Shown one piece after another: positions 1-19,684 of a stretch of 20,263 nt of DNA. A program made the position numbers and the translations under genes. The DNA comes from a virus. The notes under the pieces are model-generated. The model saw only the letters and a program-made list of their open reading frames with translations. It was not told the origin of the DNA and made no database searches. The number at the start of each line of letters is the position of its first letter. Position 1 is the stretch's first letter. The DNA lies in IMG/VR virus record IMGVR_UViG_3300010389_000179, positions 1-20,263 of that record; one strand, 5' to 3'.

Positions 1-795
1 AGAGAAGTTAGTCCCCGTCATACTTGCCACATCAGCTGATCGTGTGACGGTTGAGGAGGTTGTGGGGATGTAGGAGGTTGCAAACTCACCAGTTTCTGTT
101 TGCAATCCCCAGCAGTAAATACCATCTGTTCCGTTCATAGCAGGAAGAGTAATGCCTCCAGATGAATTGAACAACTGAATATTTAATGTCCCGTCGTTGC
201 CATTAGACGATTTAAGAGCAATTCTATACCAACCATTGCCGCAGGGTTTGACTTCATACCACCCCGCGTTTACTGAGCTAATGATGCTCCCATCGGTCAA
301 ATCAACCACCAATCTGGCATCGGACGATCCGTCATAATTGTTCATCCAAAGTCCCGCATAATTCCAGCCATTAGCTTTTAAAAATACGCTCGCCGATACT
401 GGATTAGTTGGTGAAGCTATTCCATATAAATAAGTATAAGTAGCACCAGAGTTTGGAACTACACTAGTAGCTGTGGTTGTACCGTCTGGAGCCACTGCTG
501 CATTAGCAGTGATTGTTTCGTTCCCGCTTGTAAATGCTGCCGCCTGACTAATATCTCCACTATTAAGTACAACATTCGTCCTACTCTCCTCAATCAACAA
601 CCCCAGGCTGTTCCCATCGCTGTCGTGATCAAACCGTGCCTCATCTTGTGCAGCCGTGCGGATAATGCCGCTTTCGTCGGTATACGTTGCCGTGGACCCA
701 CGGGTAAAAGTAATCCGTGAGTCCAGTTTTTTGCTGTTGGCAAAGTCCAGGTTGAGCGACGGTTCAACAGCTGGGTAAAGATGTCGAATCGTCAT
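1..795 (-). CDS. Putative fibre/adhesin protein, N-terminal part (runs off the window edge)
   Basis: The frame is open from an ATG at 795 to the window edge, giving 265 codons with no stop, so the gene is partial at its C-terminus. Residues 1-72 match the start of the neighbouring 834-aa protein almost position for position: LYP, LDSR.TFTRGSTATY, EARFDHD and SLGLL. This module recurs at the start of many phage structural proteins. Residues ~75-250 look like a beta-sandwich carbohydrate-binding module, with an NGWYRI strand, CWGLQ.E.G and TSYIPT. They end in STVTRSADVAS, as in the paralogue. The start overlaps the upstream stop codon as ATGA, and a GGAG Shine-Dalgarno lies 7 nt upstream. I infer a secondary fibre or host-surface-binding protein attached to the virion through the shared N-terminus. 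The C-terminal, specificity-bearing part is outside the window. Confidence 0.85.
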   Translation of the reverse strand, partial: MTIRHLYPAVEPSLNLDFANSKKLDSRITFTRGSTATYTDESGIIRTAAQDEARFDHDSDGNSLGLLIEESRTNVVLNSGDISQAAAFTSGNETITANAAVAPDGTTTATSVVPNSGATYTYLYGIASPTNPVSASVFLKANGWNYAGLWMNNYDGSSDARLVVDLTDGSIISSVNAGWYEVKPCGNGWYRIALKSSNGNDGTLNIQLFNSSGGITLPAMNGTDGIYCWGLQTETGEFATSYIPTTSSTVTRSADVASMTGTNFS

Positions 796-3296
796 TGTGC
801 GACTCCGTTAAGGGTGATCGTCCAACCACGGGACTTGAGGTTGGTTACAGCGGTGGTGATGTTAGGTGTACCAGAACCTGCGTTGTAGTCAATGGTGATG
901 TCTACAGAGGCAGGAGCAGATTGACCAGAGGTGTCGATGCTGTTAAGGATGTTTTCGACGGAGGTAGCGGTGAGGGAGGTGCAGGCGTTCCAAGTGCCAA
1001 CAAAGCAGTTATTTACTGGTGTACCAGTCCAAGAATCGAAGAAGTTAGCTGGGAAGCTGGTAAGGCTGGTGCAGTAGTACCAAGCATAGGTAAAGTTTGT
1101 TCCACTAGACGTATCAATTAATGGGAAGCTAGTAAGGCTGGAGCAGCTTTGCCAAGCCTGAGAAAAATTAGTCCCACTAGACGTATTAATTAACGGGAAG
1201 CTAGTTAGGCTGTTGCAGCCGAACCAAGCAGTGTAAAAATTAGTCCCACTAGACGTATCAATTAAGGGGAAACTAGTCAGGCTGTTGCAGCCGTACCAAG
1301 CAACAGAAAAATTAGTCCCACTAGACGTATCAATTAAAGGGAAACTAGTCAGGCTGGAGCAGTTACGCCAAGCATTGCTAAAGCTAGTCCCACTAGAAGT
1401 ATCAATCAAGGGGAAGCTAGTAAGGCCGGTGCAGTTGTACCAAGCCTCAGTAAAATTAGTCCCACTTGAAGTATCAATCAACGGGAAGCTAGTTAGGCTG
1501 GAGCATTGGAACCAAGTTCGGTAAAAATTAGTTCCACTTGAAGTATCAAGCAGGGGGAAGCTGGTAAGACTGTTGCAGTTGTGCCAAGCTCGGAAAAAAT
1601 TAGTTCCACTAGACGTATCCAACAAGGGGAAACTGGTCAGGCCGGTGCAGTTGTACCAAGTGCTATCAAAAGTCGCAACGTTAGATGTATTGAGTAGTGG
1701 AAAACTTGTTAATCCAGAACACCCCAACCAACTAGATTGCAGAGTAGTGGCACTGGAAATATCAATTAAAGGAAAACTAGTCAAACCACTACAGTTATAC
1801 CAAGCATCTCGAAAATTAGTCCCACTAGACGTATCAATTAAGGGGAAGCTAGTAAGGCTGTTGCAGCCGGTCCAAGCACTTTGGAAGTTAGTACCACTAG
1901 ACGTATCAATCAACGGAAAAGACTTCAAATTTACGCAACCATTCCATGCAAGGTAAAGACTTGCGCCACCTGTTGCATCAACTGTTGCATCAAAAGATTC
2001 AAGATTGCTGCAACCCCAAAAACTTCTATCTCCGTCTATTACCATACTTTCTGGAGCAGGACCAACCGCTACAACCTTATTCTTGTGCGTTGCGTTGTTA
2101 TTGATGTAGGGACGGAAATAAGTACCGCTATCCAACCTGAAACCAACCTCGTGATACCCGCCACCATCAGTAAAGGTGTGGTCACTGGTGGTCAAGGTTT
2201 CAACCGTTCCATCACCCCAGTCAACCGTTACCTGACCATCAGTAACAAAGCTAGGAAGACCAAAGCTGCTACCAAGGATCCGCCACCGCCAGAACTCATC
2301 GGTCTTGCCGACACTGGCGTTGATTTGGGTTTGAGTCAGGTCTTGGCTGTAGACAGCCGTGCGTTTAATCGGCGTTTCACCGGCGCCAACCAGCGACAAC
2401 GTGGAGCCACCAGCCGCTGAACCAAAGGGTTCGTTGAGGATGGTGAAGCTATCGGTGTCGTAGATGCTGGAGTTGGTGAGGTTTGCTACGTCTGCTGAGC
2501 GGGTGACGGTTGAGCCATCAGTCGGAATATACGAACTGGGGTATGCGAGACCAAGCTCACACTGAAATCCCCACCAATGAAAGGTATATCCAAGTGGTTT
2601 ATTTGCAGCTGGGTAAATTCCACCTGGGGCTCCAATGGTCCATGCGCTTGCTGTTGTGTTTTGAGTAACAAACCAGACACGATAAATACCTCCTCCAAGG
2701 TAATAACTACCATGTGACACTGGTGTGTACATATCATGCCCCACCCATTGAGTTCCGGTAGATATTGTTTTGTCTGCATTTATTGTGACTATGCCACGGG
2801 TGTAATTGGATCCAGCACTGCCTAAGGCAATAAACATATCGCCAGTGCTAGAATTTTGTGCATCAACATAAAGTGAGTAGCACACATAACCATCAACTGG
2901 AATTGTAAAATACGATCCAGGACCGCTTTGACGTATAGTGTTTGTTGCGCTTGTAGTTGTAAGTGTTACGAATTGTCCTGAACCAGTAGGTGATGGACCA
3001 CCGGTTCCGTAGCTTACGTTTACGTCCAAAGATAGTGTCCATGAAGTATATGCTTCAGACCTTGTATGACTATTGGTGCTTGATGTTTCCACCAACAATC
3101 CAAGACTCTCACCAGTCGTTGGATCGTGGTCAAACCGTGCTTCGTGTGCTGCAGCAGTTTTAATCAGTCCATCGCTGCCAACGTAAGTGGCGGTGGACCC
3201 GCGTGTGAAAGTTACACGAGAGTCCAGACGCTTTTGCCGAGCGAAGTTAAGGTCCAGCGCAGGGCGTTGGGTGGGGTAAAGCTGTGAGATTGCCAT
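792..3296 (-). CDS. BspA-like leucine-rich-repeat fibre/adhesin protein (834 aa)
   Basis: Residues 1-75 are the phage module shared with the next gene (FTRGSTATY, EARFDHD, SLGLLVE). Residues ~76-258 resemble a carbohydrate-binding beta-sandwich (GIYRVWF, WWGFQCELG, SSYIPT). Residues ~330-430 contain VTVDWGDGT (357-364), typical of the PKD-like or leader segment ahead of BspA/DUF285 repeats. Residues 455-742 are twelve tandem 24-residue repeats with consensus xxLTSFPLIDTSSGTNFxxAWxxC, flanked by one degenerate unit on each side. The tail is a closing cap of about 90 residues. No signal peptide is present. The ATG forms a TAATG overlap with the preceding stop and has GGAGG 7 nt upstream, so the start is secure. 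I infer a virion-borne adhesin that displays a repeat solenoid for binding host surface ligands. The BspA-family assignment is by repeat pattern. The function is not proven. Confidence 0.85.
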   Translation of the reverse strand: MAISQLYPTQRPALDLNFARQKRLDSRVTFTRGSTATYVGSDGLIKTAAAHEARFDHDPTTGESLGLLVETSSTNSHTRSEAYTSWTLSLDVNVSYGTGGPSPTGSGQFVTLTTTSATNTIRQSGPGSYFTIPVDGYVCYSLYVDAQNSSTGDMFIALGSAGSNYTRGIVTINADKTISTGTQWVGHDMYTPVSHGSYYLGGGIYRVWFVTQNTTASAWTIGAPGGIYPAANKPLGYTFHWWGFQCELGLAYPSSYIPTDGSTVTRSADVANLTNSSIYDTDSFTILNEPFGSAAGGSTLSLVGAGETPIKRTAVYSQDLTQTQINASVGKTDEFWRWRILGSSFGLPSFVTDGQVTVDWGDGTVETLTTSDHTFTDGGGYHEVGFRLDSGTYFRPYINNNATHKNKVVAVGPAPESMVIDGDRSFWGCSNLESFDATVDATGGASLYLAWNGCVNLKSFPLIDTSSGTNFQSAWTGCNSLTSFPLIDTSSGTNFRDAWYNCSGLTSFPLIDISSATTLQSSWLGCSGLTSFPLLNTSNVATFDSTWYNCTGLTSFPLLDTSSGTNFFRAWHNCNSLTSFPLLDTSSGTNFYRTWFQCSSLTSFPLIDTSSGTNFTEAWYNCTGLTSFPLIDTSSGTSFSNAWRNCSSLTSFPLIDTSSGTNFSVAWYGCNSLTSFPLIDTSSGTNFYTAWFGCNSLTSFPLINTSSGTNFSQAWQSCSSLTSFPLIDTSSGTNFTYAWYYCTSLTSFPANFFDSWTGTPVNNCFVGTWNACTSLTATSVENILNSIDTSGQSAPASVDITIDYNAGSGTPNITTAVTNLKSRGWTITLNGVAQ
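803..806 (-). promoter_or_regulatory. Ribosome binding site of the partial fibre gene
   Basis: GGAG on the minus strand, 7 nt before the ATG at 795 and inside the end of the upstream gene. It supports this start. Confidence 0.6.
1071..1934 (-). repeat. Twelve tandem 72-bp coding repeats (24-aa BspA/DUF285-like units)
   Basis: Twelve consecutive in-frame units of exactly 72 bp encode xxLTSFPLIDTSSGTNFxxAWxxC. Most units share long identical stretches, for example the plus-strand string ccactagacgtatcaatta. Variation clusters at unit positions 1-2, 18-19 and 22-23. The third and fourth units (residues 503-550) are the most diverged and read DISSATT and NTSNVAT. There is no insertion or deletion in any unit. 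Confidence 0.95.
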
Positions 3297-3586
3297 TAGT
3301 TAACCTCCGGTTTGGTAGGCCAAACAGGGTTGGCAGGGTCAGTAGTGTTTGCAGGAAGGTCGCGCAGTGCTTGACGGTAAGTCCTCATTTCATCGGTGAG
3401 GGTTGCGTCAGCAAGGGCGAGATAGTCGGTTTCGGCGAGAAGTTGGTTCCGCTTAAAGCGGATACTTTCCATGAGCTGAGCTGGTCGGGCATCAATACCA
3501 GCTTGGTACTCAGCTTCTTCTTCAGTAGTGAACGGGACGTAAGTAATTTCTTCCGTAATGCCATTAACAATTTTGTGGTTGTTCAT
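3296..3586 (-). CDS. Phage tail assembly chaperone-like protein (96 aa)
   Basis: This small acidic protein lies directly downstream of the tail fibre. Residues ~40-95 carry the pattern IRFKRNQLLAETDYLALAD, then an MRTYRQALRDLP motif, then PVWPTKP. This is the signature I associate with the phage tail-assembly-chaperone-like family (Phage_tail_APC type), common next to fibre genes in marine phages. The N-terminus (NGITEEITYVPFTTEEEAEY) is also typical of that group. The start overlaps the tail-fibre stop as TAATG, and the stop overlaps the next start in the same way, which indicates coupled translation with both fibre genes. A role in fibre folding or attachment is likely but inferred from context. 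Confidence 0.75.
   Translation of the reverse strand: MNNHKIVNGITEEITYVPFTTEEEAEYQAGIDARPAQLMESIRFKRNQLLAETDYLALADATLTDEMRTYRQALRDLPANTTDPANPVWPTKPEVN
3304..3308 (-). promoter_or_regulatory. Strong ribosome binding site of the repeat-adhesin gene
   Basis: GGAGG on the minus strand, 7 nt ahead of the ATG at 3296 and within the last codons of the upstream small gene. It is one of only two near-consensus Shine-Dalgarno sites in the window. Confidence 0.7.
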
Positions 3587-6500
3587 TAGACGTACCCCAC
3601 TCGGATGAAACCGGAATCATAGGTGTTGCTATTTGGTGAAAAACTTACTCGGTCAATAAAATCAGTGCCGTTGTAGAAACAACCACCAACGTTTGTATAA
3701 TTATTACCGCCATGATCACTAAGTGTCCACGAACCAATCCACCAATTACCATTGCCGCCCACTCTTGACATTTCAAATGTTCCGTTGTAAATAGCGTTAT
3801 TACCACTAAAAGCGCTGTGAATCAAACTGATCCTGTTGTCGCTGTGGTTGTCCTCGAAATTGTTGCCATAACTAAGCGCCCACCTGTAATTAAGAGTAGT
3901 CACAATACTTCCATTTCCAAATCGAAGGAGAACTTGAGATCCACCATTATTTAACGCAGAAACTTCTCCAATAGCAATTTTAATGTATTGAGCGGTAGTA
4001 GGAATACCAGTTACAGTGACACCAGTTGTCCCGTCAACTTCAACAGGAGCTAACCAAGTGAACCCAGCAGCAACAGTCGCCCACTGCGGAGCACTGCCAG
4101 AACCTTGGCTTTGCAGAAACTGACCGCTAGTGCCGTAGTTTGCACCGCTTAGACCAAGGTTACCGTTAAGGGTAAGAGCATCAACACTGACACTCGCCGG
4201 ATCTTGGAACGCCATGCCGCCAAGCATTCCGTTAAGCGGAACCTCGTTAGCAGCAGTACCAATATCGTGTTGAGTGACAATCGGAACTTGACTGAGATTA
4301 AACTCAGTAACTTGAATCAGACCAGCGCCATTGGCGTCAAGGTCGATGTCACCGTCAGTAGTAGAGGTGTTGATTGCAAACGTTTGAACGTCTAGGTCAC
4401 CACCAAGTTGAGGGGTGGTGTCAGTAATTAGATCAGCAGAAGCTGCTGCCCAAACGTTATCACCACGGAGAAAATTACCAGAACCCGGTGTACCAGTTGC
4501 CGACAGTTCAGCAATACCAATGGCATCATCTGCCATCTTAGCATTAGTGATCGTGTCGTTATCAATAGTCCAAGTAGTACCATTACCAGAAACAGTAATG
4601 TCACCCTTATCACCATCAATTACACCATCAATCTTACTCCAGGCACCACCGACATAACCTTCAAACTCATCACGAGTAGTGTTATAGCGGAAGTAACCAT
4701 TAGTAGGTGAACCGTCACGTTGAGCATCAGTACCAAGAGGAATAACAGCAGAACCATTACTACCAGTCTTAATAACTGCATTAGAAGCAGCAGAAGGAAT
4801 GGTTACAGAACCAGTCTGTTGATCAACACTAAAGGTGTTACCAACTTTAAACTTACCTTTATGGTCAGTAATAGCTGCCCAAATCTTACCGTTGTTAAGT
4901 TCAATGGTTTGTTTGGTTTCATCCGGCACACCACCGTTTTCAGGCAGTGCTCGGTAGTCAGTACCACTACCAACATATTCCATCGTGTGACCGCTAGAAG
5001 CAATCATAGAACGAAGGAAGAAGCTAACAGCAGCACCACTGCTTACAGCACCATCAAGACCAAGGTTATTGGTAAAGTCAGTAGGATCAGGACGAATAAT
5101 TGTTACATCCCACCCAGCACCGTTAGCAACAGCACTCAGGACAGGATAGGTATTACCACCAATATCCACAAGCATGTTGTCTTGAGGACGGGTAGCAGAA
5201 CCATGCCACGGAGAACCAGCAGAAGGTGCACCAATGGTAAAGCTGATGTCACCGTCGTTAGCAGTTGCAGTCGTTGTTGCAGTAAAGATAGCGTTAGTAG
5301 AACGACCATCAGCAATCAACGAATGGCTACCAAAGTCAGACGTAGAAGCAGCAAGGTTAGCTTGACCACCATTCTTAGTCTTCAGATGGTAATGACCAAA
5401 GAAAGAATAAGAGCTAGTAGCTTGGCAATAACCATTATTGGTAACAAAGATACCAGGACCGTTAAGCGCAGTGTGGGTGTAGCTATCGCACACCATAGAC
5501 CGCAACGGAGAGTTGCTAGCAGGGGTGTTACCATCAATTAAGATACCACCACCAGTCGGTGCGGAATCAAGGTCACCAGCAGCGCCTTCACCCGGAGTAT
5601 GTGGGGTAAAGGTTACGTTGTTGATCTGGGAGTCGGAGAAGTTAGTACAGTTTTGGATGTACGGAGACTTCTTAATACTTGCACCAGGATAGAACGCAAA
5701 GTTCCAACCTTGGTTAGTAGGCAGACCGTAGGTAGCGTCGGTATCAAGTGAGTTACCACCACGAGTACCGCTAGCCTTCATACCAGTCAAGGTAAGACCG
5801 TAGAAATAAGTACCGCTGTTAACACGGAACATCGTGCTAAGCTCATTAGGCTCAGGCACATCTACGTCATATCCAGCTTGATCAGCAGTAGGAATAGCAG
5901 GGTGAATAATGCAGTTCCTTAGGGATTGACCAACGATAGAAATGTCATTCTTTTCAATGTCAATCGGGAACTCTTCACCGTAGATACCAGGCGCAACAAG
6001 AACGATGCTGCCGTCACCATCAGGATCAGCGTTAATATCTTCAATAGCTGCTTTAATGGTACGCTTAGGGTTACTGATACGGTGACCAGCAAGGGTATCA
6101 TCACCGTTAACAGAGTCAACGTAGATAACCTTAGTCAGTTCGGTAAACGCACCACCAGAAGCAACAGCTACCCAAGCACTACCATTCCAAATCGAAACAG
6201 TCTTGTCAGCATCATTTTGAAGCCAGGTTTTACCTACTTCCCAGTCTGATCCGGTTGGTGTAGCGACCTGAACAAGAGTGTCAAATCGCTTAGCAGCAGC
6301 ATAAGTCGTAGGCAGCTGATTATCACTATCCCAAGAAGGAGACCCAGCATTTTGCTCAGCATACGTGACAATATCTGCATCTTTGATCTTGCTAAAATCA
6401 ATTGTGTTGTCAGCGAGACCAAGGGTAATGGTACCGTCACCATCGTCAGTTACGGTAATACCAGTACCATCAGTACCAATGTCGTTGGTTATAGCGTCGT

Positions 6501-7059
6501 CAATCTTTGCAGTAACACGGTTTTCAATCGAAGCCGTGGTTGCAATCTGACTGTCAACAGCGTTCCAAGTTTCGTTGCTGTGGATAGTTTCAGTTTCGTC
6601 ATCCCAGCTGTTAGCTTCAAAATATTGTTTGTTAACAGCATCTTTAGCGTTAACAGGATCAGCCATTTCGGTGATCCGGTTGTCATTCATATCGACGTTG
6701 GTATCAAACTCACCGTCGGTTTTAGTTACATACTGGTCTTCAATTTCCTGTGCAGAGTACAAGACCTGCAGGAAGTCATCATTAAGATCCTGAGCACGGA
6801 TGGCAGAGCCCGCAAAAAATTCGTTGCGGACTCCACTGTCAATATCCGTATCCCTAAAAATTCGTACGTTATTAGTACCACTCGGGGGAGCAGTAGTAAA
6901 CGTAATTTCAGTTAGAGTTGAAAACGTGTAATCAGTGTCTTGAGTTTTTAAGGTACCTCCGACAGAAACTTTGACGTCGGATTCCTCTAGATATTCAAAT
7001 GGGATTGTAAAGGTGAGGTCGGAACCGTCACCGTTGTAAAATACTTCAGTTGTAGCCAT
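3586..7059 (-). CDS. Tail fibre protein, T7 gp17-like N-terminus (1157 aa)
   Basis: Residues 1-~150 match the T7 gp17 N-terminal anchor domain that attaches fibres to the tail: VFYNGDGSDLTFTIPFEYL, then V.IFRDTDI, then F.AGSAIRAQDLN.DF.Q.L...QE. Residues ~150-300 look like a linker/shaft. From ~309 a pectate-lyase-like right-handed beta-helix begins (VIYVDSVNGDDTLAGH, PKRTIKAAIEDIN, VLVAPGIYGEEFPI) and runs to about 600. Further on are trimeric shaft-like repeats (YFRYNTTRDEFEGYVGGAW; GTSGQFLQSQG near 976). Residues ~998-1157 form a beta-rich tip rich in Asn, Gly and aromatics, likely the receptor-binding end. It is about twice the length of T7 gp17 (553 aa). A promoter-like motif lies in the 30-nt gap before the start. 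There is no clear Shine-Dalgarno. Confidence 0.9.
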   Translation of the reverse strand: MATTEVFYNGDGSDLTFTIPFEYLEESDVKVSVGGTLKTQDTDYTFSTLTEITFTTAPPSGTNNVRIFRDTDIDSGVRNEFFAGSAIRAQDLNDDFLQVLYSAQEIEDQYVTKTDGEFDTNVDMNDNRITEMADPVNAKDAVNKQYFEANSWDDETETIHSNETWNAVDSQIATTASIENRVTAKIDDAITNDIGTDGTGITVTDDGDGTITLGLADNTIDFSKIKDADIVTYAEQNAGSPSWDSDNQLPTTYAAAKRFDTLVQVATPTGSDWEVGKTWLQNDADKTVSIWNGSAWVAVASGGAFTELTKVIYVDSVNGDDTLAGHRISNPKRTIKAAIEDINADPDGDGSIVLVAPGIYGEEFPIDIEKNDISIVGQSLRNCIIHPAIPTADQAGYDVDVPEPNELSTMFRVNSGTYFYGLTLTGMKASGTRGGNSLDTDATYGLPTNQGWNFAFYPGASIKKSPYIQNCTNFSDSQINNVTFTPHTPGEGAAGDLDSAPTGGGILIDGNTPASNSPLRSMVCDSYTHTALNGPGIFVTNNGYCQATSSYSFFGHYHLKTKNGGQANLAASTSDFGSHSLIADGRSTNAIFTATTTATANDGDISFTIGAPSAGSPWHGSATRPQDNMLVDIGGNTYPVLSAVANGAGWDVTIIRPDPTDFTNNLGLDGAVSSGAAVSFFLRSMIASSGHTMEYVGSGTDYRALPENGGVPDETKQTIELNNGKIWAAITDHKGKFKVGNTFSVDQQTGSVTIPSAASNAVIKTGSNGSAVIPLGTDAQRDGSPTNGYFRYNTTRDEFEGYVGGAWSKIDGVIDGDKGDITVSGNGTTWTIDNDTITNAKMADDAIGIAELSATGTPGSGNFLRGDNVWAAASADLITDTTPQLGGDLDVQTFAINTSTTDGDIDLDANGAGLIQVTEFNLSQVPIVTQHDIGTAANEVPLNGMLGGMAFQDPASVSVDALTLNGNLGLSGANYGTSGQFLQSQGSGSAPQWATVAAGFTWLAPVEVDGTTGVTVTGIPTTAQYIKIAIGEVSALNNGGSQVLLRFGNGSIVTTLNYRWALSYGNNFEDNHSDNRISLIHSAFSGNNAIYNGTFEMSRVGGNGNWWIGSWTLSDHGGNNYTNVGGCFYNGTDFIDRVSFSPNSNTYDSGFIRVGYV

Positions 7060-7079
7060 TACACATTTTAATGTTTAGG

Positions 7080-7088
7080 TTACGGGTG
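7080..7088 (-). promoter_or_regulatory. Possible phage RNA polymerase promoter element before the tail fibre
   Basis: The only gap between the gp16-like gene and the tail fibre (30 nt) contains CACCCGTAA on the minus strand. From memory, this equals the 3' nine bases of the promoter reported for cyanophage Syn5 RNA polymerase (ATTGGGCACCCGTAA). The upstream six bases do not match. T7 also has a promoter (phi17) here. The match is suggestive only. Confidence 0.3.
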
Positions 7089-7089
7089 G

Positions 7090-10000
7090 TTATTTGTTGG
7101 TCATAGTCTGGACGTCAAACCTAGGGGCTTGACCCATCTTCTGATCAACTACGTTTCTACCAGCTTGGTAGATACGGGTTTGCAGATCGTCTTGCATTTC
7201 AAGAGGCAGTCGCAGTTCAGCAAGTTTCTTAGCTTCACGTGCAGCTGCATCAATGTTAATGTAAAGATTATCGAAGATCTTTTCATCAATATCTTTACCA
7301 TCTTTCATACGCAAACCATGGATGGTATCACGCCACTCATCAGCGTCGTAGATATCCATAAGTCGGGCAATCTCATCTTTGAAATAACCATCCTTACCCA
7401 TGATCTCAAATAGCTTGGCTTTTTCCTCAGCAGTGTACTTAACACCGTTCTCTGCTACGTTGAACACAGGACGGGTGTCGTACTCAATCTTCATCAAGAA
7501 ATCAGCTTCAGGACGCTCACGACCTTCGTAAATTTTCATAGGCATAACCGCATTCCAACCACGAACAAACGGGTTTTCTGCGTAGCCTACCTTATTACCG
7601 TACAGCCAGTCATGCAGCTCTGGCAGCGCACCTTCTGGGTCAACAAGATCAGCCACACCATTCTTGTTACGAATGTGAGCAGCCAGTTCGTTTTCAACAA
7701 CTTTCAGTGCAGGTGTTATGACACGACCCAAGTCACGCCGTACACCATGCAACGGTGCAAGCGGGCTCAAGAAGTTACCAGCCCACCGGGTTTGTGCACC
7801 CTGGTCACCACGCATCACGTCAAACATGGGTTCCATACCAGCAAACATATCCCGGCTGGTCAAAGACGCTGCAAGGATAAACCATGCTTTGTTAAGGAAC
7901 AGGTCGGGTTCAGAGATGCTAGTAAAGTTATCCATAACGTCAACAGTAAATGCCATCCAGTCACCGACCGGACCAAGCCAGTCGTAGCTGTGCCAGTTAC
8001 CGTCATCATCCATGTAAGTTTTCTTTTGATAACCTAGTTCTTGACGAACACGTTGACGATTAGGATCAAAGTGACCGTTACCACGGATTCTGCCAGCATT
8101 CCACAAACCAAAGGCACTCATAATAGCAGCAACGCCGATAGCTTTTTTACCACGCAGTTCTGCACGCAAACCGTCAAACTCAGCCTGGGTAGGCTTAAGA
8201 CCACGAGGAGTCATCAGTTTGTCCAGCTCATCGGCAGTAAACCCTTCCATCGGTGTGTTCAATACAATCTTTTTGTAGTCATCCATAAACATGGTGACAG
8301 GACTGTAAGTACCGAAGGTAGACACAACGTTGGCACTGGTCTTAGGGAACAGTACAAACGGTTTCATCCAAGGGTTAGCTTTGATAAGATTGGTAAACGA
8401 CCGGACACGTGGAGTGTCAAGGTTCAGCGCAATCTCACTGGTAGCGTAATCAACGTAGTCATTTTTAATCAGACCCTTGCTGTTAAACATAGAGTCGTAG
8501 TATTCCTTTGCCTTAGCTGCAAACTGTTCTTTGGTAGGTTTAGTGATACCTTCGTCAATGAACTCGTCGTATGCCAGCATGCGTGCACGACCGTTAGCCA
8601 TGACAGCACGGGTAAAGCCGTCAAACGCAGACATAGCATTGGCACCAAACCTAAGGATAGGATTGTTACCCAGATCTTGTAAGGTCTCTGCAATTTCTAG
8701 CAGAGCTGCAGGTCCGTCTTCACCACGCTCAGACGCTGCATTAGCAAACGAACGAAGCAGTTCCATTGATTCTTCGTTACGTACAGCCAGGTCGTCACGG
8801 ACCATATAGCTGACGCTGTTAGGATCTTTGGATGCCATGGTAAATACCTTACCCATGTGCTTAGTTCCTTTCATAAAGGAGTCTAGCACAGAGCTGTAGG
8901 CAACCCAACCACGCTTCATTTGACGTGCATCTAGACCGATTGCAGCACCACCAATGTGGGCAACAGGCTTGGCAATCATACCACCAACGTTACCGAACAA
9001 TGCCTTAGCAGGTGTAGAGGCAGATGTCAGGATAGAGTTATAGTAGTTAGAATATAGACCTTGGACAATAGCGTTAGGAATATCAGGACGCTTGTCATAT
9101 ACTGCTTTTTGAATAGCAGGAAGGCTTTCTTTGATATACTCGTTGAGTTTACCCATGGTGTTAATGTCACCATCAGAGAACTCATAAGCCAGCCGCAGCG
9201 GATCAAAGAACTCAGGACGCTCATCAGCAACAGCTTTCAAAGTTTGAATGAAAGCCAGTGCTTCGTCGGCAGCCTCTTGCTGCATATCGTCTGCTGTTTT
9301 AGCAGCCTCTCGGGCAGCGTCAGCAACAGCTTCAGGGCTATTAGGATTACGTTTCCAAGTGTTAAGAAAGTTCAGCTTTTGACCACGCATCTTCTTAGCA
9401 AGACCAGTCTCCATGACGAGATAAGTCAGACGGTCAAAGATACGCTCTTGAGCCTGTTGGACTGCAAGAGTGCCTTCCATGTTACGTGCCTGCTCAGCAA
9501 TGTCAGAAACCTGACCAGCCAAAGAATTAACAAGATATGCACGTGCCTTTTCAGCATCCATGTTGACATACTCATCAAGATATTTCTTGATAGCTTTCAT
9601 GCCAGCATTAACGCCTTCATCAGTCAGTACAGCGGTCTTTTTACCGAGCCTAGTGTACTCTTCTTTGAACTCATTCATCATGAGTCTGAGCCAACCAGGA
9701 TCAGCTTGTGGGTCAGTCAGCAGTTCAGCAATACGTGTGCCCGCAGCGTCGATCTCCTCAAAACCAATCTTAGCACCGTCAGGCAGAAAAGCATCATACT
9801 CACCGGCTTTACGAATCTGTTCTTGGACTGCTTCAATGATGGTACGCTTAGGCAGTTGGTCTGCTTCTAAGCCATACTTAAGTGCAGCTTCAGACACCAT
9901 GCTACGGAGCCTGCCGTGAACAGTACCAGCGTTGTTCTGAATACGCACCTGGTCTACAGCAGCCCCTACAACACCCATGTCATCCACGCTACGCACTCCC

Positions 10001-11058
10001 ACCTCATCAGGATGGAAAACGTCATGTACGCCCTTTGTAGCGTCTTCTGGCATAGGGTTCTTAGTCAGGGCAAGCTGACCAATTTCGTCCAATGCTTGCT
10101 CAGTTTTAGCTGTAGCAGCATCCATGTTAGCCATGAACTCTTGTGGATCAGTTTCTTCTGCACGGGCAAATGCCTTAGCAGCAGACTCATCCTTAAAGAC
10201 GTAATCGGTAACAGAACGGGTACCACGGATAGCCCGACCTAATTTAACAAAGGCTTCAAGAAAACTAGATCCCATGCCAAGCATGATACCTTCGTTTCTA
10301 TTCTTTTCTGCCCAGACGTCAGGTGATTCACCGTCAAGGGTTGCCCAGTCGCTAGGAATCCAACGATAAGTTTGAGGCCAACTCTTTTTAAAATAACCAG
10401 CAAGGTTATCGTCAACAGCGTTTAGCTTGTTAGTAGAGTCAACGTAGGCACCGACACCAGTGTCAACACCTAGCTCTGCCATCCACTTACCAGCACGTGA
10501 AGTGCTAGGAAAACGCTTAGCAACAGCAGCAGCAGGACCACGAGAGGTAGCTGCACCAACACCCATTTTAGCTCCTTTACGGAGCATCAGGAACGGAAGG
10601 ATCATAGAGCTGAGATCACGGATGCTTTGAGCAACACCGTTCTCATACTGAGGTGCTTTACGAAGGTTAACGCCAGGAAGCTTGTTGATCTCATCTGCAA
10701 AGTAATCGTTCAGACCTCTTCCCGGAGCACCAAGAATGTCCAGCGTGGTGTCAATAAAACCTACAGACTCATTCTTACCGCTTTCAGTGCGAGGATCCTT
10801 AAGGTACATATCCTCACGCATCTTCTCTTGCTCGGTAGGACCGGCAGGTTCAGTTTGCGTAAGTTGTGGGGGAGGTTCATCTTGTACTTGAACTTCTGGA
10901 TACAGCTTAGAAAGTGCATCAGAAATCTTAGCAGCGTCAAACCCTTGAGATTCTTCGAGTTGTTCAGGATCAACCTCTGTAGTTTCAGACTGTAGAGCCT
11001 GTTGCAGACCTTGTTGCAGGTCCGGCATTGTAATTTCTTCTAAGGGATCAAATTCCAT
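7090..11058 (-). CDS. Internal virion core protein, T7 gp16-like (1322 aa)
   Basis: Size (T7 gp16 is 1318 aa) and position (after the gp15-like gene, before the tail fibre) identify it as the large internal core protein, which in T7 is ejected and helps pull DNA into the cell. The first ~100 residues are acidic, Gln/Glu-rich and probably disordered. The rest is mostly helical, with Ala/Glu/Lys-rich stretches. Two hydrophobic segments stand out: around residue 150 (SSMILPFLMLRKGAKMGVGAA) and around 976 (AIGVAAIMSAFGLW). These could contact membrane during ejection. I see no lytic transglycosylase motif at the N-terminus, unlike T7 gp16. The start forms a TAATG overlap with the upstream stop, and a GAGG lies about 11 nt upstream. 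The assignment rests on synteny and size more than on motifs. Confidence 0.8.
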   Translation of the reverse strand: MEFDPLEEITMPDLQQGLQQALQSETTEVDPEQLEESQGFDAAKISDALSKLYPEVQVQDEPPPQLTQTEPAGPTEQEKMREDMYLKDPRTESGKNESVGFIDTTLDILGAPGRGLNDYFADEINKLPGVNLRKAPQYENGVAQSIRDLSSMILPFLMLRKGAKMGVGAATSRGPAAAVAKRFPSTSRAGKWMAELGVDTGVGAYVDSTNKLNAVDDNLAGYFKKSWPQTYRWIPSDWATLDGESPDVWAEKNRNEGIMLGMGSSFLEAFVKLGRAIRGTRSVTDYVFKDESAAKAFARAEETDPQEFMANMDAATAKTEQALDEIGQLALTKNPMPEDATKGVHDVFHPDEVGVRSVDDMGVVGAAVDQVRIQNNAGTVHGRLRSMVSEAALKYGLEADQLPKRTIIEAVQEQIRKAGEYDAFLPDGAKIGFEEIDAAGTRIAELLTDPQADPGWLRLMMNEFKEEYTRLGKKTAVLTDEGVNAGMKAIKKYLDEYVNMDAEKARAYLVNSLAGQVSDIAEQARNMEGTLAVQQAQERIFDRLTYLVMETGLAKKMRGQKLNFLNTWKRNPNSPEAVADAAREAAKTADDMQQEAADEALAFIQTLKAVADERPEFFDPLRLAYEFSDGDINTMGKLNEYIKESLPAIQKAVYDKRPDIPNAIVQGLYSNYYNSILTSASTPAKALFGNVGGMIAKPVAHIGGAAIGLDARQMKRGWVAYSSVLDSFMKGTKHMGKVFTMASKDPNSVSYMVRDDLAVRNEESMELLRSFANAASERGEDGPAALLEIAETLQDLGNNPILRFGANAMSAFDGFTRAVMANGRARMLAYDEFIDEGITKPTKEQFAAKAKEYYDSMFNSKGLIKNDYVDYATSEIALNLDTPRVRSFTNLIKANPWMKPFVLFPKTSANVVSTFGTYSPVTMFMDDYKKIVLNTPMEGFTADELDKLMTPRGLKPTQAEFDGLRAELRGKKAIGVAAIMSAFGLWNAGRIRGNGHFDPNRQRVRQELGYQKKTYMDDDGNWHSYDWLGPVGDWMAFTVDVMDNFTSISEPDLFLNKAWFILAASLTSRDMFAGMEPMFDVMRGDQGAQTRWAGNFLSPLAPLHGVRRDLGRVITPALKVVENELAAHIRNKNGVADLVDPEGALPELHDWLYGNKVGYAENPFVRGWNAVMPMKIYEGRERPEADFLMKIEYDTRPVFNVAENGVKYTAEEKAKLFEIMGKDGYFKDEIARLMDIYDADEWRDTIHGLRMKDGKDIDEKIFDNLYINIDAAAREAKKLAELRLPLEMQDDLQTRIYQAGRNVVDQKMGQAPRFDVQTMTNK

Positions 11059-13772
11059 TATCGAATGAACCTCAAGTAGTTACGGTTAATAGTTCCGGTA
11101 TACGCGCCCCTACCTGTTTGACCAGCATAATGATAGAAATTACCACGTGGATCAAACATCGGATCGTTGTCAGGATCACGATTCCTCAGTTGAGATTGAC
11201 CTTTGAAATCAGTCCGCCCTTCCAAAACCATGAGCATTCGAGCAATCTTTTTTTGCCCTTCAGGAGACGACAGTTTTTTAATCAACGCATCTTCATACCT
11301 AGCAGTCCTGTCACTGACAACAGCTGCATATTGACCAGGGCGACGGGCAATTTCATGCAGTGTCTTGCCAAACCGTCCATCAGACAAACGGTTAATAGCA
11401 GAAGCAGCCACAGCATACTCGTCATCGGTACCTCTTGCAGCTTCACCGGAAACAATAAAGGCAAGTTCACGGAAATCAGAAGCAGTCAAACCCTGCAGAC
11501 CTTGGGGCTCACCACCTGGGAATACAGGCGCAACTGCAGGCATACCAGCACGGGTAGGCATTTGAGCAACTGGACCGTATTGACGGGTATCAGTGTACAA
11601 GTCACCGCCGATGCTTTGGATATGTTTTAGCCAACGGTTTTGTGAAGTCTTAGAGGCAGCACGTTGAAGGAAAGCTGGGGACTGCGGGACTTCACCTGGT
11701 TTAAGAATACCAAGACCCTGACCAGCAGCGATAGCAAGTTGCATAGGTTTAGTGATAATTCTACCAACAGAATCGTTGATAAGTTTCGAAGCACGCACTA
11801 ACTCAGGATCAACAACACCGTTGTTTTGCCAGTTCGAAAGTATGTCACGTGTGCGTTCAGTAGTAAGTCCTAGTAATTGAGGTGTTTTAGCCACCTCAGT
11901 CAGGACACCTTGAGAGGTTTTAGCGTTAGCAGTCAGATTTGAAATATTGTTTTGGAACGATACTTCCTTTGCATCTGCTGCGTAAACTGGGAAGTTAGGG
12001 AAACTACCATTCTTCGGGTTTACATAGTATTGATGTTTCTCGTTTTTACTGTCCTTATCCCACTGTGACAAGGCAGCATCTCTGGCTTGGTCAGCAATGG
12101 CTTTAGGTGTCAGTTTTTGTTCAGGACTCAGTGCTTCGTTTTTCTCGATCAGCTCTGCGTACTTAGAATCAAAAATACGTTGGTAGTGTGCATTGACTTG
12201 TACTGCTTGACCCATGAGGTTACCCAAGGGGTCAACCATGGTCTTACGTACTGACGTACCGATAGTGGATTTAATCTCTTTAGAGTTAACAGTATACTCA
12301 GGTGACTTAACACGATCGACTTGCTTGTCTACCTTTTCACGGTACTCAGGACCGACCACAGGATGCGTGTAGTACTCAGCACTCTTACTGGCGTTACCGG
12401 TTGCCAAAGCGATCTCCGCATTGTTACGGAGTTCGTTCATCTCGTCAGCTCCATACGAAGCTACCCTTTGACCTTCATCAAGCAGCGTCATCAAATCCTT
12501 TTCAGGGATACCAAGCTCTGCTGCTTTCTGACGTACAACACCTTTAAACTCAACATACTCAGCAACAGTCTTAGGTTGCTCCAAGCTCTCTTTGTTAAAA
12601 GAAGCAATAGAGAAAACAAGATCCTGTTTGTCCCCTTTCAGTTTGTTAGCCAGGTATGTACGACGCTTGTCACGATAGGTACGCATCAGCAAAGCGGCTT
12701 GACGCGGAGCACGTTGCATAAAAGTCTGACCATCTTCGGTCTGAGCCTTCATGATAAACTCACCAATCGGAAACTCAGCACCGTTTTCAGCGGCGGTACC
12801 GATGTCACTAATCAGTCTGGCAAAAAACTCTTTTGGTGTATTAAGAAGGTTGATGCCTTTCTTATCGTACATGCTTGCAGCATTAGTTTGAAACTTACCT
12901 AAGGATTGAAGATCACCTTTTGCAAAGTCTTCAAACATAGCAGTGTAGCCAGCGTTGAACCGTTTGGTCCCGTCGTTAGCCCTAGTTTCACGCGAGTATG
13001 TTCTAGTGATTTTGGCGTCGGTTGTAAAACCAAGAGCCATTTCATCTTGAATCAGATCGTTGTTAGTATCTGCCAAAAGCTCATGCCCCATAAACGCTGT
13101 GCGTAGGTGAGACATAATTTGTTTGTGCTGGAAGTCAGGCAGATTCTTTTGGTTGATAGCAACCTTGACCATACCACCCTGACCATCCTCCACCATCACT
13201 TCAGTGTCGTTTGTTTCAAGTTGTGTTGTCATCCATTCAGGATACACATTTTGGAACATGTGACGGGCAGTACGTCGGCGTAAAGCAATCTCTCCGTGAT
13301 TAGAGAAATTAAGGATACCACGAACAGTGTCGTAGTTATTGGTTTGAGCAGCTACCTCGGCAGCAGCGCCTTGGATCTGACCATCCCGTGCTTTTTCGTT
13401 CTGCTCGATCGCCATCAACTCCCCATTTTGAGGAATGAGACCTTGTTGTAGCATCTGATAATATCTATCATCAGCACGTGCCAGTTGAATAGCAACGTCT
13501 ACTTCTTGAACAGCAGAAAGAGTTTTAACAGTCTCAGGCAGTAGCTCAGCAAACTGACCAATGACTTCACTTGTCGAAAGTTTCTTAGGCTGTTGACCAT
13601 ACAAAGCTTCAGCATTAAGCTGTCCGCTCTGTTCTAAGTTAGCAAAGCTACGTTGAATAGCTCCAAGATTTTGTTGCAGAGATGGGTTAGGATCAGGAAG
13701 CTGAAGTGGATCGAACTCTTTAGATCGAGCAGCTGACTGAAACTGAACCTCTGAAAGTTCCGGTAGTTTCAT
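11058..13772 (-). CDS. Internal virion protein, T7 gp15-like, with C-terminal SleB-type cell wall hydrolase (904 aa)
   Basis: It occupies the T7 gene 15 position (T7 gp15 is 747 aa). Residues 1-~750 are helical and charged, as expected for a core-stack protein. Residues 761-904 form a distinct domain resembling the SleB/Hydrolase_2 cell wall hydrolase family. It has DFRELAFIVSGEAARG with the probable catalytic Glu at 777, AVAASAINRLSDGRF, then IARRPGQYAAV, and an aromatic NFYHYAGQ near the end. It would cut peptidoglycan (glycan strand) locally as the channel crosses the cell wall. A Pro-rich linker (residues ~735-760) separates the two parts, consistent with a fused enzyme domain. The gene starts 16 nt after the gp14-like stop, with no clear Shine-Dalgarno. 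Confidence 0.85.
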   Translation of the reverse strand: MKLPELSEVQFQSAARSKEFDPLQLPDPNPSLQQNLGAIQRSFANLEQSGQLNAEALYGQQPKKLSTSEVIGQFAELLPETVKTLSAVQEVDVAIQLARADDRYYQMLQQGLIPQNGELMAIEQNEKARDGQIQGAAAEVAAQTNNYDTVRGILNFSNHGEIALRRRTARHMFQNVYPEWMTTQLETNDTEVMVEDGQGGMVKVAINQKNLPDFQHKQIMSHLRTAFMGHELLADTNNDLIQDEMALGFTTDAKITRTYSRETRANDGTKRFNAGYTAMFEDFAKGDLQSLGKFQTNAASMYDKKGINLLNTPKEFFARLISDIGTAAENGAEFPIGEFIMKAQTEDGQTFMQRAPRQAALLMRTYRDKRRTYLANKLKGDKQDLVFSIASFNKESLEQPKTVAEYVEFKGVVRQKAAELGIPEKDLMTLLDEGQRVASYGADEMNELRNNAEIALATGNASKSAEYYTHPVVGPEYREKVDKQVDRVKSPEYTVNSKEIKSTIGTSVRKTMVDPLGNLMGQAVQVNAHYQRIFDSKYAELIEKNEALSPEQKLTPKAIADQARDAALSQWDKDSKNEKHQYYVNPKNGSFPNFPVYAADAKEVSFQNNISNLTANAKTSQGVLTEVAKTPQLLGLTTERTRDILSNWQNNGVVDPELVRASKLINDSVGRIITKPMQLAIAAGQGLGILKPGEVPQSPAFLQRAASKTSQNRWLKHIQSIGGDLYTDTRQYGPVAQMPTRAGMPAVAPVFPGGEPQGLQGLTASDFRELAFIVSGEAARGTDDEYAVAASAINRLSDGRFGKTLHEIARRPGQYAAVVSDRTARYEDALIKKLSSPEGQKKIARMLMVLEGRTDFKGQSQLRNRDPDNDPMFDPRGNFYHYAGQTGRGAYTGTINRNYLRFIR

Positions 13773-13788
13773 AGTTTATCCCGTAGGA

Positions 13789-14505
13789 CTATTCTTTTAC
13801 GATTTTCATTTTACGGAAAGCAGAGTCAGGGTTAAACGCAGTATCAAACTGTTTATACATACTGAGACCAGATTGAATACCACCCATAACCTTCATTGCA
13901 GTGTTGAAGAAACCACCGCCTTGGTTTTGAGTATAAGGAGGGATGTATCCACGTGGAGCCATCTCAGAGATAGGACCACCATCAATGATCGGTGCACTTG
14001 CAGAAACGTTAGCTTGAGCCAACGAACCACTGATACCACCAACATCACGTCCGTACTGGCGTTGTGCACTGACGACACTTTCAATAAACTTAGCGTTGTT
14101 ACGACCGTAGTCGCCTAATGTTTTGATAGCCTTAGCCCGATCTGCGCTCCTCCCGTAGGATTCAGTAGCAGCAGCGTAGCCCTCAGCTTCCATAAGTTGA
14201 CGCATCATACCTTCCTTTTGGAAAGCAAATGCCATCATCTGTTCACCAAATTTAGCTTGTTCAGTTTGAAACGAAGCGTTTGCTGCTGCAAAGTTTTCGT
14301 CAAACTGTTTGTAAACTTGCTCTACCTTGCGGTCAAAAGCCCGCTGACGGTATGCATTCATTATCTCAGTTTTACGCTGAGACAAAAGATTGTTGTAAGC
14401 TGCTGCGCCAATCTGTGCAGAACGATCTTGTACAGGTTTGCTACCGAACATCGACGCAACACCTTGAACAATGCCCAGTCCGGCGCTTATTGCTCCGATT
14501 GCCAT
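13789..14505 (-). CDS. Internal virion protein, T7 gp14-like (238 aa)
   Basis: Position and size fit T7 gp14 (196 aa), the internal protein that inserts in the host outer membrane on ejection. The N-terminus (AIGAISAGLGIVQGVASMFG) is a small-residue, Gly/Ala-rich hydrophobic segment. It is followed by a long helical stretch (residues ~25-150: EIMNAYRQRAFDRKVEQVYKQF and onward) and a Gly/Pro-rich C-terminal part (GGPISEMAPRGYIPPY, then GGGFFNTAMKVMGGIQSG). The ATG lies 19 nt inside the end of the 145-aa gene, so the two overlap. I infer a role as channel component by analogy with T7. Sequence motifs alone would not prove it. Confidence 0.8.
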   Translation of the reverse strand: MAIGAISAGLGIVQGVASMFGSKPVQDRSAQIGAAAYNNLLSQRKTEIMNAYRQRAFDRKVEQVYKQFDENFAAANASFQTEQAKFGEQMMAFAFQKEGMMRQLMEAEGYAAATESYGRSADRAKAIKTLGDYGRNNAKFIESVVSAQRQYGRDVGGISGSLAQANVSASAPIIDGGPISEMAPRGYIPPYTQNQGGGFFNTAMKVMGGIQSGLSMYKQFDTAFNPDSAFRKMKIVKE

Positions 14506-14924
14506 AATGGTTTAGTCCAATAAAATTCTCTTAGATTTGTGCTGACATACCAGTCAGGATGCCATCGTCGCCACCTTGAAAACGTTTTCCATTGTTTTTC
14601 TGGATCGGCGCTAGTACAATCAATGAAGATCGTATCTCCTGCTGGTATCAGCCACCGCAATCTAAGGACTTCATTGAACCCACGTGGGATTGTTTTGAAG
14701 CCCTCAGTACCGGTCATAATCCTATTCAGACTACGATAGCGTCGATTACGTTTACCGTGATACCAGTCGTTTATCTGTCGTCGTGATTTACCTACAGCAA
14801 ACCCGACTCTCCAGAGCACACCACCACTTGCAGAAGATTGCCAGGGTTCTAGAAACACTTTACATATATGCTTACCAACTGTGATAGTCGATGTAAGCAA
14901 ACGGCGGCGTGGTCTGTAGGTCAT
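14487..14924 (-). CDS. Conserved-position small protein in T7 gene 13 slot, function unknown (145 aa)
   Basis: I do not recognise this protein. It is basic and strikingly Trp/Arg-rich, with 10 Trp in 145 residues. The C-terminal half carries DTIFIDCTSADPEKQWKTF and a cluster SRWRRWHPDWYVS. T7 has a protein of similar size (gp13, 138 aa) at exactly this place between tail tube B and gp14, but I see no convincing similarity to it. The start overlaps the TTB stop as ATGA, and the end overlaps the gp14-like gene by 19 nt. It is thus embedded in a coupled structural operon and is very likely translated. A virion-assembly role is inferred from position only. Confidence 0.75.
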   Translation of the reverse strand: MTYRPRRRLLTSTITVGKHICKVFLEPWQSSASGGVLWRVGFAVGKSRRQINDWYHGKRNRRYRSLNRIMTGTEGFKTIPRGFNEVLRLRWLIPAGDTIFIDCTSADPEKQWKTFSRWRRWHPDWYVSTNLREFYWTKPLWQSEQ

Positions 14925-17866: not shown

Positions 17867-18477
17867 CGTGCAAGCGCGTTATACGGTTGATAATTGTTGT
17901 AATAGTTTTCTCCGTCACGCCAACCAAAGATGGTGTAATCACCTTGGTTGCAATCATACTCGATTGCAGTGGCACGGGTCATCATTTCTTGTTCTTGCAG
18001 TAGTTGGGAAAGCTGAGCTTCACCCACTGTTTTAATTGCAGACATCCTTGCAGCACGAGCCGTGATGTAATCTTGGATAGCTGGAGGGACGTCATCAAAT
18101 GGATACAACCACACGATATCAGCTTTGATATCTTTCTTGAACTTGTAGGTGTGGTTGAGGCGGTCGTAGAGTTTGTTCCCACGTCGTACTACATCGTAGT
18201 CATCCAGATGCTCTTGTTGATTGGTATCAACTTGCAACGCATTGGTAGGATAAAGAATTTCTTCAGTTGTAGAATCAGGCTTAAGGGTGTATCCTCGTTC
18301 CTGATTAAACATCCATCCTTCAGATTGAACTTGTTTGTTGACTTCACGAATGGTCGTCAAGACAATAGCAACTTCAGGGTTCTGAAGATCTAGCGTGGTG
18401 ACAGGAGCCTGTCCCACGGAGCTTAGGATTTGATTAACAGCATCCAGTTCGGTGGACGCAGCAAAGGTGACAGGCAT
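17863..18477 (-). CDS. Tail tubular protein A (gatekeeper), T7 gp11-like (204 aa)
   Basis: The opening residues TELDAVNQILSSVGQAPV are the hallmark of T7-type tail tubular protein A, the dodecameric ring joining portal and nozzle. Other family features are EGWMFNQERGYTL, then PTNALQVD, DVVRRGNKLYDR and the C-terminal DYITARAA segment. Length fits T7 gp11 (196 aa). The frame stays open upstream to 18582, but that longer start would run through the terminator and the capsid end and adds a non-family segment. I therefore chose the ATG at 18477. It begins just after the terminator T-tract with no visible Shine-Dalgarno. It therefore depends on read-through or a pyrimidine-rich leader. Confidence 0.95.
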   Translation of the reverse strand: MPVTFAASTELDAVNQILSSVGQAPVTTLDLQNPEVAIVLTTIREVNKQVQSEGWMFNQERGYTLKPDSTTEEILYPTNALQVDTNQQEHLDDYDVVRRGNKLYDRLNHTYKFKKDIKADIVWLYPFDDVPPAIQDYITARAARMSAIKTVGEAQLSQLLQEQEMMTRATAIEYDCNQGDYTIFGWRDGENYYNNYQPYNALAR

Positions 18478-18490
18478 AGTAGTAATAGAT

Positions 18491-18518
18491 AAAAAAAAGG
18501 GGCACCCGAAGGTACCCC
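18491..18518 (-). terminator. Intrinsic terminator after the capsid gene
   Basis: On the minus strand GGGGTACC-TTCG-GGTGCCCC forms an 8-bp stem (one G-U pair) closed by a C(UUCG)G tetraloop, followed directly by eight T. It lies 20 nt after the capsid stop codon and before tail tubular protein A, the position of the T-phi terminator in T7. It is expected to raise capsid mRNA relative to downstream genes by partial termination. A run of four A precedes the stem, giving weak bidirectional character. Confidence 0.93.
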
Positions 18519-18538
18519 AAAATGAGATCAAAAAAAGA

Positions 18539-19684
18539 TCAGAAGGCAGCGTTGCCGGTAGAACCAGGAGCAGCGCCGGCAATCAGCTCGACACAAGCAG
18601 CAGGGTTCAGGTAGTCAGCGCCCATGGCGAGACGACCCAGGATCACGTCGCCCTGGTAGATCACGGACACGTCACCGCTGGTGACTTGAACCTGAGGACC
18701 GATAGCTTCCACGCAAGCAGCACCTTCACGCTGGAAGATGAGGCCGCAGCTGTTAGCAAATTCGGTCTCTTCACCGTACTCGTTGTTGATACCGGTAACG
18801 TCGTTAGCGGCGTCTTCAACGGAGGGAGACACGAAGGAGCCGGTGTTGCCAGGATCGGTAACACCAGGGTTGGTAGCAGATCCAGTACCATACTTGGTAC
18901 CATACTTGCTGAAGAACGGAATGTTCATCGACTTGTAGATCTTGATACCAGCGATCTCAACGATACCTTGACCCTTCTGACGAGCCATACCTTGCTCATC
19001 GCGGTTGATCAGACCGGAGTCGCCAACCTTTTGAATCAGCTCATAGTACTGGCGAGGGTTCAGAACACCCACGCGACCTTCGGAGCTGACGCCTTTCTCG
19101 TCCATAGCAGCAGCTGCGTCATAGAAAGCAGCAACCAGCTTGTCAGAATCATAGGCATCAGAAGCGTTAGCGGTAGCACCAACGCGGATCTGAGTACCAC
19201 CGGGCTCAACGAAGTTGGACTTGGTGATAGGAGATGCAGCACGTGCACCGCGAGCGATAGCACGGAAGATCAGACGGTCATACTTCTCTGCGAGAGCGTA
19301 GCCGATCTTACGGCTGATCTCAGAACGCAGGTCGTAATGTGCGAGGGTCTCGTCCAGGTCGTAGACGAATGCGCTGGAGATCAGCAGGTCGTCAACGGTG
19401 ACGGTCTTCTCGGCCACCGGAGGTGCACCGTCGCTGTTGCCAAGGATGGCGTTACCAGGAGTATGGTACTCAGCGGTGGTACGACCGGTGTAGATGAACT
19501 GCATAGACTTACCGTTGGTAAGCGTACGCTTGGTCACCAGGTCACGAGCGATAGCGTTGTACTCGAAACCTTTGAACATCTCACCGCTAAAAAGCTTGAG
19601 ATACAGAGCGCGGGCGTCACCCGCGGAGTTAGCCTGACCAGGACGAGTCAGACTCGTGGTCAGAGTAGAAGATTGATGTGCCAT
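18539..19684 (-). CDS. Major capsid protein, T7 gp10-like (381 aa)
   Basis: It forms the icosahedral head. Family features include the N-arm and DARALYLKLFSGEMFKGFEYN, then R.L..GKSMQFIYTGRT, then VDDLLISSAFVYDLDETLAHYD (E-loop and spine helix region), and RVGVLNPRQYYELI. The C-terminal part ends in DVSVIYQGDVILGRLAMGADYLNPAACVEL. Length is close to T7 gp10A (345 aa). The gene is locally more GC-rich and regular in codon use than its neighbours, consistent with high expression. The ATG at 19684 is preceded by ACTCCTTAAAA rather than a Shine-Dalgarno. The leader upstream is highly structured. Confidence 0.96.
   Translation of the reverse strand: MAHQSSTLTTSLTRPGQANSAGDARALYLKLFSGEMFKGFEYNAIARDLVTKRTLTNGKSMQFIYTGRTTAEYHTPGNAILGNSDGAPPVAEKTVTVDDLLISSAFVYDLDETLAHYDLRSEISRKIGYALAEKYDRLIFRAIARGARAASPITKSNFVEPGGTQIRVGATANASDAYDSDKLVAAFYDAAAAMDEKGVSSEGRVGVLNPRQYYELIQKVGDSGLINRDEQGMARQKGQGIVEIAGIKIYKSMNIPFFSKYGTKYGTGSATNPGVTDPGNTGSFVSPSVEDAANDVTGINNEYGEETEFANSCGLIFQREGAACVEAIGPQVQVTSGDVSVIYQGDVILGRLAMGADYLNPAACVELIAGAAPGSTGNAAF

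Follow-up and report, generated by a model that had tools for sequence, protein, structure and literature searches.

The folds usually named for phage receptor-binding proteins are β-helices, jelly rolls and C-type lectins, and what determines the range of Synechococcus or Prochlorococcus hosts open to a marine podovirus is, to our knowledge, poorly known. A literature search returned no study of a leucine-rich repeat (LRR) receptor binder in phages. Repeats of the kind described below occur in Vibrio phage pir03 (ORF200/287), Aeromonas phage D3 and Synechococcus phage ACG-2014f, in proteins named BspA, PARCEL or 26-residue repeat, and in Klebsiella P2-like gpI, which carries the same sort of name and has Phe-type units fused to a P2 gpI domain. 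In the TpLRR pattern, Ala-Phe stands before xxC (PMC2843621). Among virion proteins, the head fibres of the Rhodobacter gene transfer agent (RcGTA) attach to their base via a Leu-Gly anchor peptide and enable host capsule binding (PMC7296036), and E217 gp45 belongs to the baseplate, where it holds the tail fibre (PMC10329688). Genetic engineering has been described for T7-like cyanophages (PMC8776855).

Here we analyzed a repeat-protein gene in a stretch of viral DNA of 20,263 nucleotides (the window). The major capsid protein encoded in the window is 99.7% identical to those of the Synechococcus phages S-RIP2 and KBS-P-1A (Sednavirus, Autographiviridae), and positions 5980-20191 share 94.8% DNA identity with S-RIP2 (blastn). 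The window belongs to a Sednavirus-like T7 cyanophage, and the host of this marine source phage is probably the cyanobacterium Synechococcus. On the fibre side of a boundary zone the identity to S-RIP2 is gone, except for a 77-bp stretch in the fibre chaperone. As S-RIP2 identity is lost towards the fibre end, the distal fibre and the later genes, including the repeat gene, are a replaced cassette, which sits on an almost constant phage backbone. In gene order, the fibre (PF03906) precedes its assembly chaperone (PF16778), which is followed by the repeat protein and by a paralogue that has the same N-terminal module:

4796-5980, no strand assigned: zone of identity loss relative to S-RIP2, from 95% to 73% to none (cassette exchange boundary; blastn against L001)
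3586-7059, minus strand: T7-type tail fibre, 1157 aa (PF03906, 96.3 bits at residues 4-150)
3296-3586, minus strand: tail fibre assembly chaperone (Phage_tail_APC), 96 aa (PF16778, 63.7 bits against a cut-off of 26.6)
792-3296, minus strand: putative repeat adhesin gene, an open frame of 834 aa (phrog_34853 and phrog_5939 matches)
1-795, minus strand: paralogue with the same N-terminal module as the repeat protein, 265 aa seen, cut by the window end (NF048003, 133 bits; phrog_5939, 5.6e-72)

The match of the 834-aa protein to phrog_34853 (unknown function) has a value of 6e-68, and that to phrog_5939 (tail protein) one of 4e-48. The protein can be divided into the following parts:

2472-3296, minus strand: N-terminal virion module (GTA head-spike-fibre type, jelly-roll-like), residues 1-275 (NF048003, profile matches)
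2037-2294, minus strand: VDWGDGT (PKD-like) domain, residues ~335-420 (motif at 358-364; pLDDT ~70-83)
1929-2036, minus strand: N-terminal cap with a degenerate unit, residues 421-456 (kept in the closest relatives L032, L141 and L118)
1065-1928, minus strand: twelve 24-aa Trp-type leucine-rich repeats, residues 457-744 (model pLDDT ~90)
975-1064, minus strand: C-terminal capping unit, 30 aa (LTSFPANFFDSWTGTPVNNCFVGTWNACTS), residues 745-774 (kept in relatives differing in copy number)
795-974, minus strand: C-terminal domain, residues 775-834, helix-strand-helix-strand (structure model; near-identical in relatives)

The degenerate unit, 25 aa long (residues 432-456), directly precedes the array. 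The VDWGDGT segment described in an earlier sequence-only reading of this DNA was thus recovered within the repeat protein; PKD_4/PKD domains were called in relatives, with no call in the window protein itself.

Counted from Leu, all twelve array units are exactly 24 aa (72 nt) long, running from window position 1928 down to 1065. The sequence-only reading had placed the right array at 1071-1934, in a phase that starts two residues earlier. Tandem Repeats Finder independently reported a 72-nt period at 1051-1660 (score 616), which excludes a chance origin of the repeats. The earlier description as twelve exact units is accurate for count and length, but not for sequence, since the pattern xxLTSFPLIDTSSGTNFxxAWxxC is fully matched in only 5 of the 12 units (2, 7, 9, 10 and 12), and units 3 and 4 depart strongly from it. 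The units have a period in common, not a sequence. Trp19 and Cys22 are invariant in all twelve. The single Cys per unit, which had been noted beside the Trp, is standard in DUF285/BspA repeats; the substitution by Trp is genuine, although the exact exchange is Ala/Thr-Trp for Met-Phe. No inverted repeat of at least 8 nt within 72 nt was found as PARCEL-type dyad symmetry in the coding DNA, a result below that of synonymous shuffles. On the plus strand, open frames antisense to the array are present at window positions 1573-1956 and 1285-1524, as reported for PARCEL coding regions, and are probably a by-product of the codon pattern.

To the earlier proposal that the repeats are BspA/DUF285-like belonged a direct search against PF03382 and LRR profiles. 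This search was negative: in Pfam, DUF285 (PF03382) and LRR_5 were unmatched by the window protein and by its repeat region, and an NCBIfam search of the protein left the repeats unrecognised, so that relatives were needed as a bridge. The phage protein L037 scores 219 bits to DUF285 (PF03382) and shares 51% identity with the window array across 309 residues; its units have 24 residues as in the window array, with Met-Phe where the window has Ala-Trp. In the control for this alignment (z 8.5), none of 5000 permutations attained the observed score and there was no competing phase. Likewise, the S-CBWM1 relative scored 26.7 bits in the DUF285/LRR_5 test, above the cut-off of 25. The lack of a Pfam match for the window protein would be expected of a convergent low-complexity Ser/Thr repeat without BspA kinship. 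However, this reading is largely refuted, and we regard it as highly improbable, in view of the direct bridge through L037, the permutation control and a confident LRR model.

With tandem units within the range of 23-26 residues, the [WF]xxCxxL register and DUF285 homology, the array is BspA-like in the broad sense. It scores below the Pfam gathering cut-off and lacks Met-Phe or Ala-Phe before xxC (Trp in 12/12), and because both features were tested and are absent, we keep it out of strict DUF285/TpLRR. The array is a Trp-type variant of the known BspA-like LRR kind. Among 1091 distinct units of relatives, AW/TW is found in 887 and MF in 132, proportions that are biased because the search patterns favoured Trp units. 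In this set, position 18 is Ala, Thr or Ser beside Trp19 and mostly Met beside Phe19. Of the 942 Trp19 units listed, 931 have Phe4; of the 147 listed with Phe19, position 4 is Ile, Val, Leu or Met in 143. The coupling of residues 4 and 19 is upheld within three proteins that mix Trp and Phe units. The coupled changes at positions 4, 18 and 19 suggest a repacking of the solenoid core.

The AlphaFold model of the repeat protein shows a leucine-rich-repeat coil with a pLDDT of ~90 over residues 480-790, and the best solved structural match of the array model is the BspA-type structure 4fs7 (Z 22.8, 3.5 Å over 359 residues). The predicted fold is an LRR solenoid, and the non-solenoid outcome that would have spoken against the sequence-only reading was not seen; together with the L037 bridge and the shared register, the match to 4fs7 bears out the BspA/DUF285-like nature of the repeats. 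Matches in BFVD include many phage proteins named BspA or 26-residue repeat, with S-SKS1 in second place. The N-terminus of the full-length model is unusable (pLDDT <50). A separate model of the N-terminal module is also poor (pLDDT 54); it reaches Z 14-15 to Pa193/E217 baseplate chains, in agreement with the sequence match, and aligns with carbohydrate-binding jelly rolls as well.

The phage origin of the N-terminal module had been read correctly. NF048003 matches residues 68-268 with 72.3 bits against a curated cut-off of 36, which identifies a head-spike-fibre module. A profile of 16 N-terminal sequences searched against the PDB matched the RcGTA head-spike fibre Rcc01080 (E 6.6e-55), E217 gp45 (2e-24), tail fibre gp17 (2.6e-14) and also Pa193 gp46. 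This homology is the strongest evidence here, though not proof, that the repeat protein would be part of the particle. By homology and context, the features of export and cell-surface anchoring appear to be absent: the N-terminus is a virion module and the gene lies among virion genes. Among the papers found, none reports proteomics or binding results on any member of the repeat-protein family. The designation as a podovirus fibre protein can be kept in so far as the protein is of fibre type and encoded after a T7-type fibre and chaperone, but it is distinct from that fibre, as a separate putative adhesin next to it.

A viral contig scan with the single window sequence found no relatives, and a three-sequence profile (window and the Synechococcus phages S-CBWM1 and S-SKS1) found at least 308 viral contig stretches that encode them. 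Cultured relatives are S-CBWM1, S-SKS1 and Nonlabens phage P12024S. BspA-named phage proteins are, moreover, already in databases, although our search turned up no experimental work on any of them, and the expectation that phage use of a BspA scaffold would be unusual was wrong on frequency. Among the relatives, the array is fused to many different N-terminal modules. The repeat gene occupies three recurring positions: in T7-like phages it comes after the tail fibre, other podovirus-like contigs have it close to the portal gene, and the third position is a T4-like site. The gene follows the fibre in L008, L018, L032, L044, L118 and L141. In the T4-like cyanophage relatives it is found between portal and prohead protease, away from tail genes. 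Neighbour genes of the relatives with a named-family match belong to tail fibre and baseplate families.

Several relatives have an unusual architecture. L008 (3375-6512) has a head-spike-fibre-like N-terminal module twice in succession in one protein. In L014 (4659-8258), a single protein of 1200 aa has N-terminal module plus array twice and includes units that do not differ over 72 nt, which is a recent internal duplication. In L055, 62 repeat signatures, with Trp and Phe units mixed, lie in an open frame of at least 2229 aa. In L077 (2-1102 and 1945-3078), a Trp-type repeat gene lies immediately upstream of a major capsid gene of T7-like type that is 85% identical to S-RIP2; the open frame seems to include the end of a second copy of the module. 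The T4-like L004 (5845-6906), L010, L015 and L071 start with MSYPFLGLGF or MTHPFLGLGF, recalling the RcGTA Leu-Gly anchor peptide, and by analogy these proteins may be head fibres.

The T4-like position between portal and prohead protease and the L077 gene beside the major capsid gene indicate that the protein may be located on the head of the particle. The main rival explanation is that the protein is a head (capsid) fibre for general sticking to surfaces or polysaccharide, like the RcGTA head spikes, without a host-range role. The best match of the N-terminal module to the RcGTA head-spike fibre agrees with this, as do the PFLGLGF starts of some short relatives, which resemble the anchor peptide described for RcGTA (PMC7296036). 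However, the gene follows the tail fibre in the window and in its nearest relatives, and also the chaperone in the window and L032, and the module likewise matches the baseplate protein gp45 of E217 and tail fibre gp17. We consider such a head fibre unlikely.

A scan of 84,980 bacterial and archaeal genomes gave nine loci only, several of which are phage contigs and others large proteins on cellular-looking contigs; the contrast with the viral scan is only indicative, since the two scans used different peptide patterns. A phage-only distribution of the Trp type was rejected, as cellular-looking contigs account for at least four of the nine genome-scan matches; the proteins encoded there are large, and some have secretory-type starts. 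L089 (3012-8405) and L090 (3-6485) encode very large proteins with secretory-looking starts, a WGDG-type domain and 26-52 Trp-type units, on cellular contigs labelled as Kuenenia and Planctomycetota MAGs. The module may have come from such cellular genes or passed into them.

We next consider how the units vary. Across the twelve window units, pN/pS was 1.09 at positions 16, 17, 20, 21 and 23, which were chosen after inspecting the data, and 0.15 at all others. Among 488 unique Trp units of relatives, positions 16, 17 and 20 are the most variable and position 21 is among the next. Unit copy number in relatives ranges from 4 to 62. In the closest relatives (L032, L141, L118 and L008) both caps are nearly constant, and there are 3-12 internal units without one-to-one correspondence. 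In each of the 17 arrays tested, synonymous identity within the array exceeds that between arrays; units identical over 72 nt occur in L014 and L025. The constant caps, free unit number, synonymous agreement and identical units demonstrate turnover by duplication, loss and homogenisation.

A pN/pS near one at the variable positions is as compatible with relaxed constraint as with diversifying selection, and neutrality is what would be predicted for a passive spacer or stalk, in which the copy number sets length and stiffness and the surface residues vary for want of constraint. The freedom of copy number (4-62) is in line with this idea. Yet the array is C-terminal in the window and its nearest relatives, with only a 60-residue domain after it, and so does not lie between an anchor and a large tip; many of the residues at the variable positions are, moreover, aromatic or polar (Y, R, Q, N), as is common in binding sites. 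Taken together, a mere spacer appears improbable. Confinement of the variation to few codons in each unit of a receptor-type phage protein would also suit a diversity-generating retroelement like the one that diversifies Mtd of a Bordetella phage. We consider this very unlikely, as a search for reverse transcriptase (RVT_1) found none in 47 related records, most of which are fragments, and variable codons are present in every unit without an adenine-template pattern.

Our preferred reading, which we consider likely, is that the product of the repeat gene serves the adsorption of a T7-like cyanophage, as an LRR solenoid on a virion-type module that diversifies by unit turnover. Since the differences between repeats are concentrated at a few positions, the repeats are most likely the fast-changing part that grips the host. 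The N-terminal head-spike-fibre/gp45-type module would tie the protein to the particle, where its most likely place is the tail, beside the fibre, and the PKD-like WGDG domain would link it to a stiff BspA-type LRR solenoid closed by conserved caps. The residues around Trp (16, 17, 20, 21 and 23) that differ between units would be exposed and probably form the face that contacts a ligand on the cell surface. As 72-nt units are duplicated, lost and homogenised while the caps stay constant, this contact surface could change quickly, and it may be transferable as a module between virion proteins.

The module, with its constant caps and few variable positions per unit, is a specific candidate for a host-range determinant that can be typed from metagenomes and counted for copy number. 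If a receptor-binding role is true, leucine-rich repeats would be added to the β-helices, jelly rolls and C-type lectins of phage receptor binding. More tentatively, in a reading that we consider less likely than not, such proteins might form a widespread class of phage LRR receptor binders, with diversification like that of lamprey variable lymphocyte receptors (a recombining array enclosed by constant caps), variable residues that set host recognition, and a plug-in exchange between tail and head proteins of unrelated marine phages.

Compared with BspA-type LRRs (DUF285 PF03382, LRR_5 PF13306 and PARCEL), the window array is alike in unit length (24 versus 23-26), in the invariant Cys three residues before the next Leu, in the DTS...TNF/M segment, in the solenoid fold, and in its variable hydrophilic positions and variable copy number. 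In contrast to those repeats, it has Ala/Thr-Trp for Met-Phe or Ala-Phe and Phe for Ile/Val at position 4, it is below Pfam recognition, and the protein carries a virion module where BspA-type proteins have an export signal or cell anchor. It also differs from the PARCEL repeats (Roske 2010, PMC2996958) in that its coding DNA is without palindromes. In S-SKS1 and S-CBWM1, proteins that are unnamed or bear a generic name have the WGDG domain, Trp-type units and the C-terminal domain in common with the window protein; like the phage proteins named BspA or PARCEL, they differ from it in N-terminal module and genome position. RcGTA Rcc01080 and E217 gp45 have an N-terminal module homologous by sequence to that of the window, and no repeat array of the window kind was matched in them. 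With the variable lymphocyte receptors of lamprey and hagfish, no kinship beyond the LRR fold is claimed; the window variability is outside the LTSF strand segment, and somatic assembly is unsupported. The likeness is one of outline, with conserved caps enclosing a variable number of diversified LRR units.
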